A stretch of 63,755 nt of DNA from a virus, in IMG/VR virus record IMGVR_UViG_3300025132_000032, positions 1 to 63,755 of that record; one strand, written 5' to 3'. The position numbers and the translations under genes are program-made. Shown here piece after piece: positions 50,158-55,934 of the stretch (position 1 is its first letter; the number at the start of each line of letters is the position of its first letter). The notes under the pieces are model-generated. The model did no database searches, had not been told where the DNA came from, and was given only the letters and a program-made list of their open reading frames with translations.

Positions 50158-51220
50158 GTTTATAGTATTTATTAATTAGTTTTTCAAATTCAGCATTAGG
50201 TATAGTTGCTTGTTTTCTATACTGTGCTTTTAGTTTTGCAAAGTCTTCTAATATATCTTCACCATAGACTTTGTATAAAGTTGGTTCTTCTTGCCATTTT
50301 TCTTTTATTTCATCTAGAGTATAAGGTGTGTCATATTCTAGACCAGGTGGTACTGAGCATGTGACTTCACCTGTAAACATCGTTGGTTCAACTTCTATTA
50401 CTTCACTAGTAGATTTATTAGATTTAATTTGAGCAAAAGCAAAGTTAGCAGCTATTACTAATGCAATTGCTAATGGATCAAATACAAATATAATTAATAA
50501 CAAGAACCAATTAACCACTTGTCCCATATCCTTACCAGTTTGTTCAGATAGATATTTAAGCGGTCCCAGTTCTCTTTGTTCTTCATTGCCTATTTCTAAA
50601 TCTAATAGTTCTGTGTCTAATCTCATTATAGAATCTTGCACAGCTTCTACTTTCAAGCTTATATCATTTCTATCTTCTATAGTAGTTGCTAGCTCTGATT
50701 GTAATGCTCGTCTTGTAGAACTAGATGTTGTTGTAATAACTTGTCCAGCTTCTTCAGAGTAATATGATACTGATGCGGGATTAGATAACGATGTTCTTAA
50801 GTCGGATATAGTTTTATTCAGTTGATCTTTTTCTAAAACTAAATCTACCTTTTGTTCTTCGAATCGATTTTGTTTTGTTTGTAATACTAATAGGGATTTG
50901 TCTAAGAATTCCGACTTTGTTGCAGTTTCTTGATAAGCTCCAGATAAGAAGCCGTATATACCACCAGAAGTAATTACCATAAGAACGAATACGGCAATAG
51001 ATAAATAAAATCTCATCCATTTGTTTATAGTATCCCAATATTGATATAGTAATGATGCTGTAACTAATTTAGCAAATTCTAATGAACCAGCCATTATGAT
51101 TACTTGTGTACTAGCTCCAGCAAATAGTTTACTCAATCCAAACACAGAATAGAATGCAGCACTACCAGAAACTGATAGAGCTGATAAACCTATTAAGAAA
51201 GGAAAGAGTCTTTTCTTCAT
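50141..51220 (-). CDS. Multi-pass membrane protein with large coiled coil
   Basis: 359 aa. About four transmembrane helices: three in the first ~115 residues (FPFLIGLSALSVSGSAAFYS; IIMAGSLEFAKLVTASLLYQ; FYLSIAVFVLMVITSGGIYG) and one near 235-260 (VVNWFLLLIIFVFDPLAIAL). A ~100-residue charged coiled coil separates helices 3 and 4. Conserved-looking in T4-like marine phages but of unknown role. The start overlaps the upstream small gene (TAATG). Confidence 0.65.
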   Translation of the reverse strand: MKKRLFPFLIGLSALSVSGSAAFYSVFGLSKLFAGASTQVIIMAGSLEFAKLVTASLLYQYWDTINKWMRFYLSIAVFVLMVITSGGIYGFLSGAYQETATKSEFLDKSLLVLQTKQNRFEEQKVDLVLEKDQLNKTISDLRTSLSNPASVSYYSEEAGQVITTTSSSTRRALQSELATTIEDRNDISLKVEAVQDSIMRLDTELLDLEIGNEEQRELGPLKYLSEQTGKDMGQVVNWFLLLIIFVFDPLAIALVIAANFAFAQIKSNKSTSEVIEVEPTMFTGEVTCSVPPGLEYDTPYTLDEIKEKWQEEPTLYKVYGEDILEDFAKLKAQYRKQATIPNAEFEKLINKYYKHGKKK

Positions 51221-51396
51221 TATACTATATGTATTAGACTTTTTACTTCTTCTATTTCTTTTTCAATTGTACGTAAAGTACTTCTTACATCATTGATAAC
51301 ATCGCCTCTTTTTAGAATAACGTCGTCTTGTTTCTTTGCCATTGCAATTACTCTTTCAAGCTTTGTTTCAATTTTTTCTTTCAGTAGTTGATTCAT
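51220..51396 (-). CDS. Small helical protein (58 aa)
   Basis: 58 aa: MNQLLKEKIETKLERVIAMA, then KKQDDVILKRGDVINDVRST, ending HIV. Strong SD (TTAGGAGTTATATT), and the stop overlaps the next ATG (TAATG). Fully helical; no family. Confidence 0.6.
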   Translation of the reverse strand: MNQLLKEKIETKLERVIAMAKKQDDVILKRGDVINDVRSTLRTIEKEIEEVKSLIHIV

Positions 51397-51406
51397 AATA
51401 TAACTC

Positions 51407-51790
51407 CTAATTTTTGTTAAAATTATTTTTTAATAATTCGTCGATTAAAGATTGAATAATAATATCTTGTTCTTCAGTCAAGAAATGTTCATCTGTTAAA
51501 TATATCCTATCAGATAAATCTAGCGTACCCTTTTCGACTTGTATTTTCATCTTCAATAGTTTTGCACATTTTTCATATTCTTCTGTTGTAACAAAATAAT
51601 CTATCAAGTCTTGTAATAACCAAACCTGATCAATTTCTCCTATTGCAAATGGGTCGTAACTTAATATAACTTCTTCGTCAGTATTAACTAATTCAGATAA
51701 AGCAACCTTTTTAGTTACTATATCATATGTTAAATCTAACATGTAACCTTCCATGAATTCTTCTACTTTGCCGTATTCTTCTGGTGTCAT
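51407..51790 (-). CDS. Hypothetical protein, paralogue of 53184-53444
   Basis: 127 aa, acidic. LIDYFVTTEEYEKCAKLLKM (~65-85) parallels LIEHYIETEEYEKCSILLQV in the 86-aa protein at 53184, so the two share a small helical domain. No known function. SD AAAGGAG. Directly downstream of the tmRNA coding piece. Confidence 0.6.
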   Translation of the reverse strand: MTPEEYGKVEEFMEGYMLDLTYDIVTKKVALSELVNTDEEVILSYDPFAIGEIDQVWLLQDLIDYFVTTEEYEKCAKLLKMKIQVEKGTLDLSDRIYLTDEHFLTEEQDIIIQSLIDELLKNNFNKN

Positions 51791-51821
51791 ATTGTTACTC
51801 CTTTTATTTAATTAACCTCTC

Positions 51822-52044
51822 TCCTCCGAAGCTTAGACGGTATGCTTCTTCAACCGTTGGGTCAGGGGGCCTATCTAGGCAGCCATCGCCATTTCAACTT
51901 GTGTGCCAGTTGTTGCAGTGAATCTTCCTTATACCCTTATCATTCTGTCAAAGCCAGTCATCCCCATATCGTGTAAATTTTTTAGTGGAGATGCCGGGAA
52001 TCGAACCCGGGTCCATAAATGCAGCTAATATAAGTAATAGCGAT
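51822..52044 (-). ncRNA. ssrA: Circularly permuted (two-piece) tmRNA
   Basis: Order on the minus strand: acceptor piece first (52044 to ~51986) with T-arm CCCGGGTTCGATTCCCGG and 3' acceptor strand CATCTCCA; then a ~20-nt spacer; then the coding piece starting GGGGATGACTGGCTTTGACA (51965). GGGGATG pairs with CATCTCC (7 bp, one G-U). GGTATAAG (coding) can pair with CTTATATT (acceptor, 52034-52027) as helix P2. A tag frame follows (51916-51875). Downstream is a textbook H-type pseudoknot: ACGGT (51857-51853)/ACCGT (51841-51837) interlocked with GAAGC (51848-51844)/GCTTC (51832-51828). CCA is not encoded (ACTA). tmRNA rescues stalled ribosomes and tags the product for proteolysis. Ends are approximate. 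Confidence 0.88.
51875..51916 (-). other. tmRNA tag-peptide reading frame
   Basis: From resume codon GCA to TAG: A-T-T-G-T-Q-V-E-M-A-M-A-A. The -AMAA end fits ClpXP-type degrons (usually -LAA, -VAA). The stop codon lies in a small CCTA/TAGG hairpin, as in many tmRNAs. The resume codon is chosen because this frame ends in a degron-like sequence; another GCA frame gives no such end. Confidence 0.78.
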
Positions 52045-52049
52045 TCAAT

Positions 52050-52059
52050 TATAAATATC
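52050..52059 (-). promoter_or_regulatory. GATATTTATA motif, probable tmRNA promoter
   Basis: Ends about 6 nt before the predicted 5' end of the acceptor piece and overlaps the stop of the 113-aa gene; no other promoter-like element lies closer. Confidence 0.5.
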
Positions 52060-52399
52060 AAATAGCAAGTAAGATTTTTGTTAAATTTTTATGTTTCTGA
52101 TAAAACAAATTTAACGAGGTTATATCTTCTTTACTAATATTTCCAGTTGTTGAATATTTCATCTTATAATTAAAAACTGTAGACTTGTCTATTCTAAATT
52201 CATTCTGATCAAAGTTTCTATTACCAGCGGACATTTTAATGTTTGCTGAAATTAAGGAAAGTATCTTATCAAACTTTTCAACAGTTACTTTAGAAATATC
52301 TTTAGGATCTACATTGTCAACAGTATTTAATATATCTAAAACAGTTTTCTGAATATCAGTATTAAGATTTTGTACTTGTTGTTTTTTTCTTTTTGCCAT
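52058..52399 (-). CDS. Hypothetical small protein
   Basis: 113 aa from MAKRKKQQVQNLNTDIQK at 52399; a longer frame to 52450 would overlap the upstream gene more and has no better start. Helical, with TVEKFDKILSLISANIKMSA. No family. Ends at the tmRNA promoter motif. Confidence 0.55.
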   Translation of the reverse strand: MAKRKKQQVQNLNTDIQKTVLDILNTVDNVDPKDISKVTVEKFDKILSLISANIKMSAGNRNFDQNEFRIDKSTVFNYKMKYSTTGNISKEDITSLNLFYQKHKNLTKILLAI

Positions 52400-52601
52400 T
52401 GTAATATCTTTTCTTAGACTTATTGTTCCAAGATTTATTAGGTCTACCATTACTAGTAATTTGATCTTTCAATAATTTATTAGTAATCATTTTATCAGCT
52501 AATAATTCTTTCAAACCTTTACCTTGTCTCCAAAGATAGATGAACATTAATATACCACCTAATAATAAACCTAATGCAAATGTTAATAATTCTACTGTCA
52601 T
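52362..52601 (-). CDS. Single-pass membrane protein
   Basis: 79 aa. One helix (VELLTFALGLLLGGILMFIY) followed by a basic tail ending NGKKKKTTSTKS. SD GAAAGGAG. Overlaps the next gene by 38 nt. No family. Confidence 0.58.
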   Translation of the reverse strand: MTVELLTFALGLLLGGILMFIYLWRQGKGLKELLADKMITNKLLKDQITSNGRPNKSWNNKSKKRYYNGKKKKTTSTKS

Positions 52602-52619
52602 TTTTATAACTCCTTTCTT

Positions 52620-52982
52620 TTAATAGCTTCTAGAGCTTTGGGTTAATCTAATTGAATCAGGCGTACCAGACTTTGCATCTAACATACCCAATCTATTTGC
52701 AACGTTGTATCTATTCTTTGCATCGTGAAGCTCTTCTATAATTCTATTAGCTTCAGAGAAAGTAATATCTACTTGCATATTACCTATACATAGTGTACCT
52801 ATAATAGGTTGAGTTGCAGGAGCTATAGGGTTAATTGCTTTATTACCCTTAGCTAGTTCTACTTTAATTGATCCCCAATTTTTACCATATCTACCTGGCT
52901 CGAATGGTTTCTTTTGATTGTGTTTAATTGGAAGTTGATTACCAGGACCTCCTCTACGAAATTTTCTATTATGCTTTTGCAT
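52620..52982 (-). CDS. Hypothetical protein
   Basis: 120 aa. Basic Gly/Arg/Lys/Asn-rich N-terminus (NRKFRRGGPGNQLPIKHNQK), then a beta segment (TLCIGNMQVDITFSEANRII) and a short helix. No family. First gene after promoter P4, with a ~155-nt leader and no SD. Confidence 0.58.
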   Translation of the reverse strand: MQKHNRKFRRGGPGNQLPIKHNQKKPFEPGRYGKNWGSIKVELAKGNKAINPIAPATQPIIGTLCIGNMQVDITFSEANRIIEELHDAKNRYNVANRLGMLDAKSGTPDSIRLTQSSRSY

Positions 52983-53031
52983 GTTAATATAATTTAATGT
53001 TGCCTACTATTTAGGGTTTCGGCTTATCCCT

Positions 53032-53058
53032 TTTAATACACCTTGTGGGTGTGTAATT
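53032..53058 (-). other. Leader hairpin in the 5' region of the 120-aa gene
   Basis: TACACC/GGTGTGTA-type inverted repeat within the ~155-nt leader after P4. No T-run follows, so it is not an obvious terminator; it may be a regulatory leader structure. The rest of the 53.0-53.14 kb gap is very AT-rich with nothing else seen. Confidence 0.3.
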
Positions 53059-53142
53059 CTTTGAATTATATAATAATAAATAAATTTGTTTTATTTAATT
53101 ATGTTAGTGTATGAGTTATTATTAAATAATAAATTATATGCT

Positions 53143-53172
53143 AATATAATTAAAATTTTCGACATATCCAAA
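53143..53172 (-). promoter_or_regulatory. Early-type promoter P4
   Basis: TTTG (53172-53169), 20-nt spacer beginning GATATGTC, TATATT (53148-53143). Drives the 120-aa gene and probably the genes beyond. Confidence 0.75.
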
Positions 53173-53183
53173 TTTTTGGAGAA

Positions 53184-53444
53184 CTATTTTGAAAAAACCT
53201 TTTCTACCTCTGGATCTATATAGCCATGATCTTTTTTAACTTGTAGTAGTATAGAGCATTTTTCATATTCTTCTGTTTCTATATAATGCTCTATCAAATG
53301 ATCTATCATCTTAAAAAACTTTTCCTTTGAGCTAAAAAACTGTAAAGGGTCAATTTCATTCACAATCATTTTGAATCCTTCATCAAGTGCTATCTTATTG
53401 AAGATTTCAATCATACGTGATATGTCTATATTGTCTCTGTGCAT
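53184..53444 (-). CDS. Hypothetical protein with TEEYEKC domain
   Basis: 86 aa, acidic. LIEHYIETEEYEKCSILLQV is shared with the 127-aa protein at 51407. No function known. A GATATTTATT motif lies 6 nt before the ATG. Overlaps the SANT-like gene by 19 nt. Confidence 0.55.
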   Translation of the reverse strand: MHRDNIDISRMIEIFNKIALDEGFKMIVNEIDPLQFFSSKEKFFKMIDHLIEHYIETEEYEKCSILLQVKKDHGYIDPEVEKVFSK

Positions 53445-55836: not shown

Positions 55837-55860
55837 AGTAGTAATTTTATTTTAAGTTAG

Positions 55861-55934
55861 TGAACCAGGAAGGATTCGAACCTTCGACCGTTAGCTTAGA
55901 AGGCTAATGCTCTATCCAGCTGAGCTACTGGTCC
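55861..55934 (-). tRNA. tRNA-Arg (UCU)
   Basis: Full cloverleaf on the minus strand: acceptor GGACCAG/CTGGTTC (7 bp, one G-U), D-arm GCTC/GAGC, anticodon stem TTAGC/GCTAA with loop CTTCTAA, T-arm GAAGG TTCGAATC CTTC. Anticodon TCT reads AGA, the main Arg codon in an AT-rich phage. CCA is not encoded. 4 nt from the 35-aa gene stop. Confidence 0.93.

Follow-up and report, generated by a model that had tools for sequence, protein, structure and literature searches.

A circularly permuted (two-piece) tmRNA gene is predicted on the minus strand of a T4-like phage sequence, at positions 52034-51828, and its sequence places it in a lineage carried by phages. The window, by which we mean the whole stretch of DNA analysed, is an IMG/VR virus record of class linear with 63,755 bases and a G+C content of 32.6%. 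Its packaging, head and baseplate genes matched phage families, and its terminase was nearest to those of the Microcystis phage Mel-JY01 (57%) and the Flavobacterium phages Immuto (55%), in whose records T4-like capsid annotations are present. The two-piece phage tmRNA is a known kind of gene; less expected is a large phage subtype that is missing from bacterial genomes in the same search.

Architecture of the permuted gene

ARAGORN reported a permuted tmRNA (tmRNA*) at 51784-52078 with the tag GTQVEMAMAA, and the Rfam model RF04321 (tmRNA_permuted) matched 51875-52035 with 63.9 bits against a cut-off of 47 (E 5e-10 over the whole window). Both results bear out the first-pass annotation, which had proposed that a T4-like phage encodes a permuted tmRNA. 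On the minus strand the 3' tRNA-like half comes first, followed by the 5' half and the mRNA-like part. The predicted 3' (acceptor) piece (51983..52034, delimited by the Rfam match and the alignment) reads, from 5' to 3', the P2 5' strands (52034-52029, 52021-52017), the T-arm CCGGG-UUCGAUU-CCCGG (52010-51994), the acceptor 3' strand CAUCUCC (51993-51987), the discriminator A (51986) and CUA at the CCA site (51985-51983). Next comes a 17-nt intervening sequence (51966..51982), presumed to be excised in view of its poor conservation and its length range in relatives. The start of the coding piece (51928..51965), delimited on the same grounds, includes the D-loop-like region, the acceptor 5' strand GGGGAUG (51965-51959) and the P2 3' strands (51945-51941, 51933-51928). 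Downstream lie the tag frame GGC...UAG (51875..51907), read as GTQVEMAMAA by ARAGORN and codon analysis, a hairpin over the stop codon (51869..51880) and an H-type pseudoknot (51828..51857; S1 51857-51853/51841-51837, S2 51848-51844/51832-51828). The layout described earlier, with the 3' half first, a short spacer, a 7-bp acceptor stem, an AMAA-stop frame and a pseudoknot, was thus recovered on the minus strand, except that the spacer, put at about 20 nt, is 17 nt long and begins after the CUA.

In a scan of 51200-53200, promoter-like sites numbered 8, fewer than the 11.4 of the shuffles, and the one terminator-like site (0.7 in shuffles) lay on the strand opposite the tmRNA. A single tRNA-Arg(TCT) lies at 55860-55934, 3.8 kb upstream of the tmRNA, as it does in three other loci (L025-L027).

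Pairing and tag constraint among relatives

To collect relatives we used a sequence pattern. It requires set bases in parts of the T-arm, of the acceptor stem and of the D-loop-like region (UUGACA), while other positions may vary. It matched 103 stretches in viral contigs; the script worked on 104 matches, including one genomic locus (L222), of which 84 were distinct over their first 150 bases. With the window and phage MA9V-3 added, and the beta-like gene of phage Marzo left out as a misfit to the script, 86 distinct sequences were tabulated. Among these, acceptor pair 5 was G-C in 41, A-U in 41, C-G in three and G-U in one, and the CCA site read CUA in 51, CAA in 19, CCA in 14, CUC in one and CAG in one; in the pattern matches, the first C of this site is prescribed by the pattern. 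The spacer measured 12-20 nt in 81 of the 86.

We aligned the window with 62 of the 84 distinct matches. Of the other 22, seven carry ANDN-like tags, six carry long tags, five are divergent and three truncated, and the last is L222. The 63 rows were chosen by eye within one tag group, after the tags had been seen. When the structure drawn on the window was laid over the alignment, 92.4% of cells were paired and 18 of the 37 pairs had two-sided changes. The covariation score was 0.320, compared with a shuffled mean of 0.157 and with at most 0.094 when the structure was slid along the alignment, although a structure derived from one row tends to beat its slid versions for that reason alone. Over the 84 distinct matches, at pairs left free by the pattern, T-stem pair 1 was Watson-Crick in all 84 (46% expected if the two sides were independent), T-stem pair 2 in 83 (38% expected), and acceptor pair 5 in 83, with one G-U (47% expected). 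Acceptor pair 3 is a G-U prescribed by the pattern, so its invariance among the matches adds no independent evidence. The strong covariation confirms the predicted acceptor stem, T-arm and P2 as helices kept by compensatory change. The spacer columns averaged an identity of 0.57, against 0.90 in the 30 columns before them and 0.75 in the 30 after.

Support was uneven in the mRNA-like part. The hairpin over the stop codon was paired in 99.1% of cells, with two-sided changes in one of its four pairs, and in the pseudoknot S1 was paired in 97.7% and S2 in 65.1%. In an unaligned test of the pseudoknot, all 63 sequences scored above their own shuffle mean, 30 above the 95th percentile and 26 above all 20 shuffles; the window itself scored 16 against 15 for its best shuffle. 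The minimum free energy of the tmRNA stretch was no better than shuffled (z +0.75), and the evidence for the predicted structure is accordingly covariation, not folding energy.

Each of the 63 frames is ten codons long and closes with Ala-Met-Ala-Ala-stop, in agreement with the AMAA-stop ending noted earlier; since the rows were picked within one tag group, this constancy holds for that group. Behind the constant peptide the codons vary: the first Ala is GCG, GCA or GCU (36, 26 and 1), the second GCU, GCG or GCA (48, 13 and 2) and the third GCC, GCU or GCG (32, 28 and 3), and the stop is UAA in 38, UAG in 22 and UGA in three. Such synonymous variation shows a translated sequence under constraint at the protein level. 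The start of the frame was placed differently in the first-pass annotation, whose tag ATTGTQVEMAMAA begins three codons early, with an ATT prefix that is not conserved. GGC is kept in all 63 rows, preceded by AAC and then U (57 rows) or A (6), and the codon three places upstream encodes Ala in only nine (as GCA). On these grounds GGC is the predicted resume codon and GTQVEMAMAA the predicted tag.

Some relatives carry tag frames of 36-37 codons instead of ten (L125, L127, L143, L150, L170, L186 and L197; also L199, which is cut at its end). These long tags start with GKQV and end in AMAA or LMAA, with pseudoknot-like sequence downstream, and by eye they hold two different inserts. They constitute a natural test of the maximum length of a tmRNA tag.

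Distribution, hosts and origin

We asked where else the subtype occurs. In bacterial and archaeal genome contigs (84,980 species, 257 billion bases), an exact-match scan of contigs of at least 3,000 bases, which would miss divergent copies, returned one match, L222. It lies on a 15.4-kb contig (CALBOT010000027.1) of an archaeal Nitrosopelagicus metagenome bin; one protein there is 63% identical to the AAA ATPase of the window, and further ORFs have counterparts in the window or in the related phage G002, which identifies the contig as phage DNA. A subtype numerous in phages and absent from bacterial genomes by the same exact search suggests a phage-carried lineage, in which the viruses maintain and evolve a ribosome-rescue RNA of their own. 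UCGACA is the usual form of the motif fixed as UUGACA in the pattern; the UCGACA variant of the pattern, run on viral contigs only, matched 29 stretches.

Among close relatives the same genes flank the tmRNA. Across 109 loci, homologues of the downstream gene were found at 18 and of the upstream gene at 34; of the 14 downstream homologues whose position was measured, 13 are 316-378 bases away from the tmRNA, that of L222 being the exception. A nucleotide search of INPHARED with the tmRNA region gave no match at 1e-5; with E up to 10 it gave 187 records, and among the 20 listed the query coverage was at most 29%.

Permuted tmRNA is known in three main bacterial lineages and in organelles. One rival reading is that a phage recently took the gene from a bacterium whose tmRNA is two-piece (of the alpha, beta or cyanobacterial lineage) and kept it as a passenger. 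This has some precedent in the phage Melnitz, whose tmRNA is described as alphaproteobacterial-like (PMC9004378). The Rfam check named in the first-pass annotation divided on this point: the permuted model passed, but none of the three older lineage models, alpha, beta and cyano (RF01849, RF01850, RF01851), exceeded its cut-off in the window. At E up to 1, beta_tmRNA was the only lineage model reported (from a score listing that omits four lower-scoring overlapping clan matches), and its weak match of 45.5 bits falls far below the cut-off of 84, which the Stenotrophomonas phage Marzo, run as a control, passed with 94.6 bits. The pattern is also missing from the genome collection save for one phage contig, and the retention of pairing despite wide divergence suggests that these genes have long resided in phages. 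We therefore regard recent acquisition as improbable, and favour the reading of the gene as part of a phage-carried lineage.

The host of the window phage was approached through its translation and promoter signals. SD-like sites precede 24 of 54 ORFs in the window, 46% of 120 in G002 and 37% of 41 in Mel-JY01. By contrast, Immuto has them at one of 51 ORFs and L037/L039 at none of 45. In the window these sites are uneven, at 19 of the 35 ORFs starting in 1-46 kb and five of the 19 beyond. Over loci of the GxxVxxAMAA group the frequency was 26% against a background of 11%, and in some near relatives it was low around the tmRNA (L146, 11% of 9 ORFs; L120, 18% of 11; L131, none of 9; L216, none of 11). 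Because of this unevenness, the frequency in the window is moderate, not decisive, evidence against a Bacteroidota host. The Bacteroidota promoter motif occurs at nine sites in the window against 4.2 expected, a count reached in one of 100 shuffles, and at two against 0.8 in L041. This enrichment speaks somewhat for a Bacteroidota host, although eight of the nine sites are on the plus strand and the long ORFs on the minus strand. Taken with the contrast to Immuto, the Bacteroidota host raised by the first-pass annotation is not supported for this phage, on evidence that is uneven. Elsewhere, MA9V-3, a phage whose isolation host is Chryseobacterium, and Crassvirales phages of the gut were found to carry permuted tmRNA, and the Cellulophaga phages Calle_1 and phi40:1 the one-piece form.

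The permuted form may have arisen within phages. RF04321 exceeded its cut-off in 10 of 50 phage records and in four of 21 further ones, the latter including Marzo and MA9V-3, two records taken in for their tmRNA similarity; it stayed below cut-off in Immuto, Mel-JY01 and the Rhodothermus phage RM378. The one-piece model RF00023 likewise passed in 10 of 50 records; these overlap largely with the first 50 and are mostly fragments, in which absence means little. Related phages thus carry one-piece tmRNA genes, and ARAGORN called one of seven one-piece stretches picked by their RF00023 match. Two such genes of T4-like phages, L237 and L238, differ from the window in their standard gene order and score 106.3 and 89.6 bits with RF00023 (ARAGORN calls L237, not L238). 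Their first 18 bases, GGGGGTGACTGGAATTGA, equal the start of the coding piece in the permuted L100 and L101, an identity that is only suggestive at this length.

A ligase tree from a quick search held 63 rows, of which 13 were labelled permuted, 11 one-piece and 39 left unlabelled, not all of the last having been searched with both models; it implied at least two changes of form. Of the one-piece labels, those of L062 and L087 rest on identity with L063, and that of L061 on ARAGORN, its RF00023 matches being below cut-off. A single origin of the permuted form would be compatible with this tree. Similarity of the short pieces is not decisive: among 3' pieces, the one most similar to the permuted set came from the beta-like Marzo gene, for which the 5' piece had been cut one base early. 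That permutation arose inside phages from a T4-like one-piece tmRNA, independently of the three bacterial lineages, and then spread among phages of several hosts is a tentative proposal, which we consider rather doubtful. If it were true, related phages would preserve both states of a tmRNA gene permutation, the one-piece gene showing the state before it and the permuted gene the state after. The co-occurrence of the two forms in related phages makes it testable how a gene comes to be circularly permuted.

Proposed function and comparison with known systems

The architecture, the covariation and the constraint on the tag are evident in the sequences themselves; from them we infer that, during infection, the gene is transcribed, its RNA is cleaved and charged, and ribosomes are rescued and peptides tagged. 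We consider it very probable that the phage encodes a working permuted tmRNA which, once its spacer is cut and CCA added, is charged with alanine, rescues ribosomes together with host SmpB and tags peptides with GTQVEMAMAA. On established tmRNA biology, the precursor would be cleaved at either end of the 17-nt spacer, its 3' end trimmed and CCA added by host enzymes (the gene having CUA there), and the two pieces held together through the acceptor stem and P2. Alanine charging would be directed by the G-U pair at acceptor position 3, which is a known alanine identity element. Host SmpB and the charged RNA would then enter stalled ribosomes, translation would resume at GGC and append Ala-GTQVEMAMAA, the ribosome would be freed and the tagged peptide marked for host proteases. 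The most likely benefit to the phage would be that ribosomes stay available while host messages are destroyed.

An SmpB gene was not found in any of 15 phage records (the window and 14 others, many of them fragments and two of 134 and 138 kb) by a search that was positive in 10 of 14 control genomes, and host SmpB is presumably used. The same result would suit an RNA that acts as a decoy or inhibitor, binding host SmpB or entering ribosomes to block host trans-translation. There is precedent for such an effect: it is reported for the CDS-less tmRNA of phage DS6A, and a phage tmRNA form that inhibited the endogenous tmRNA in E. coli has been described (PMC11915505). A decoy would not need a tag, however, and the frame here is intact and constrained at the protein level in all 63 rows, which makes this reading quite unlikely. 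Chance resemblance or a decayed gene would fit the unremarkable folding energy but can be set aside almost entirely, given the covariance-model score, the covariation and the synonymous variation in the tag. A functional, tag-encoding tmRNA thus remains the preferred reading.

To our knowledge, the permuted copies so far described in phages are linked to bacterial lineages. The first-pass annotation had taken a two-piece tmRNA in a phage to be new, but such genes are already published. One survey lists tmRNA in 402 phages with 133 unique structures, among which ARAGORN suggested 53 two-piece forms, 50 of them marine or aquatic (PMC9004378). Another count, in the paper that introduced RF04321, gives 79 phage tmRNA sequences (PMC11915505). 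The present lineage was not found described in the open-licence literature, including the available portions of PMC11590407, PMC8776804 and PMC12656738.

A close published parallel is Melnitz, likewise a T4-like myophage with a permuted tmRNA; its gene differs in that it is reported to be alphaproteobacterial-like and to have its expression under a glutamine riboswitch (PMC9004378). A search of the window for riboswitches gave no match at Rfam cut-offs. The RF04321 family shares the tRNA-like architecture of the window, which scores above its curated cut-off. So do MA9V-3 (PV245944) and the Crassvirales phages cr114_1, cr50_1 and cr53_1, which are permuted as well; the three with an ARAGORN tag call have tags starting with Gly, as in the window, but MA9V-3 and the Crassvirales phages differ from it in their tags and in a longer intervening sequence (57 nt in MA9V-3). 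In cr114_1 (L232 764-1206, NC_055897.1) a tRNA-His (865-937) lies within the permuted gene, between the T-arm and the coding part. In two Crassvirales phages the permuted tmRNA is preceded, at a distance of a few hundred bases, by RAGATH-9 and RAGATH-22 RNAs (L232 341-508 and L233 157-323). The paper on MA9V-3 names the gene only as tmRNA (PMC13120357). Besides its permuted tmRNA, this phage (L108; PV245944.1) has, according to the paper, a ClpX homologue, so that parts for tagging and for unfolding occur together in one phage (PMC13120357).
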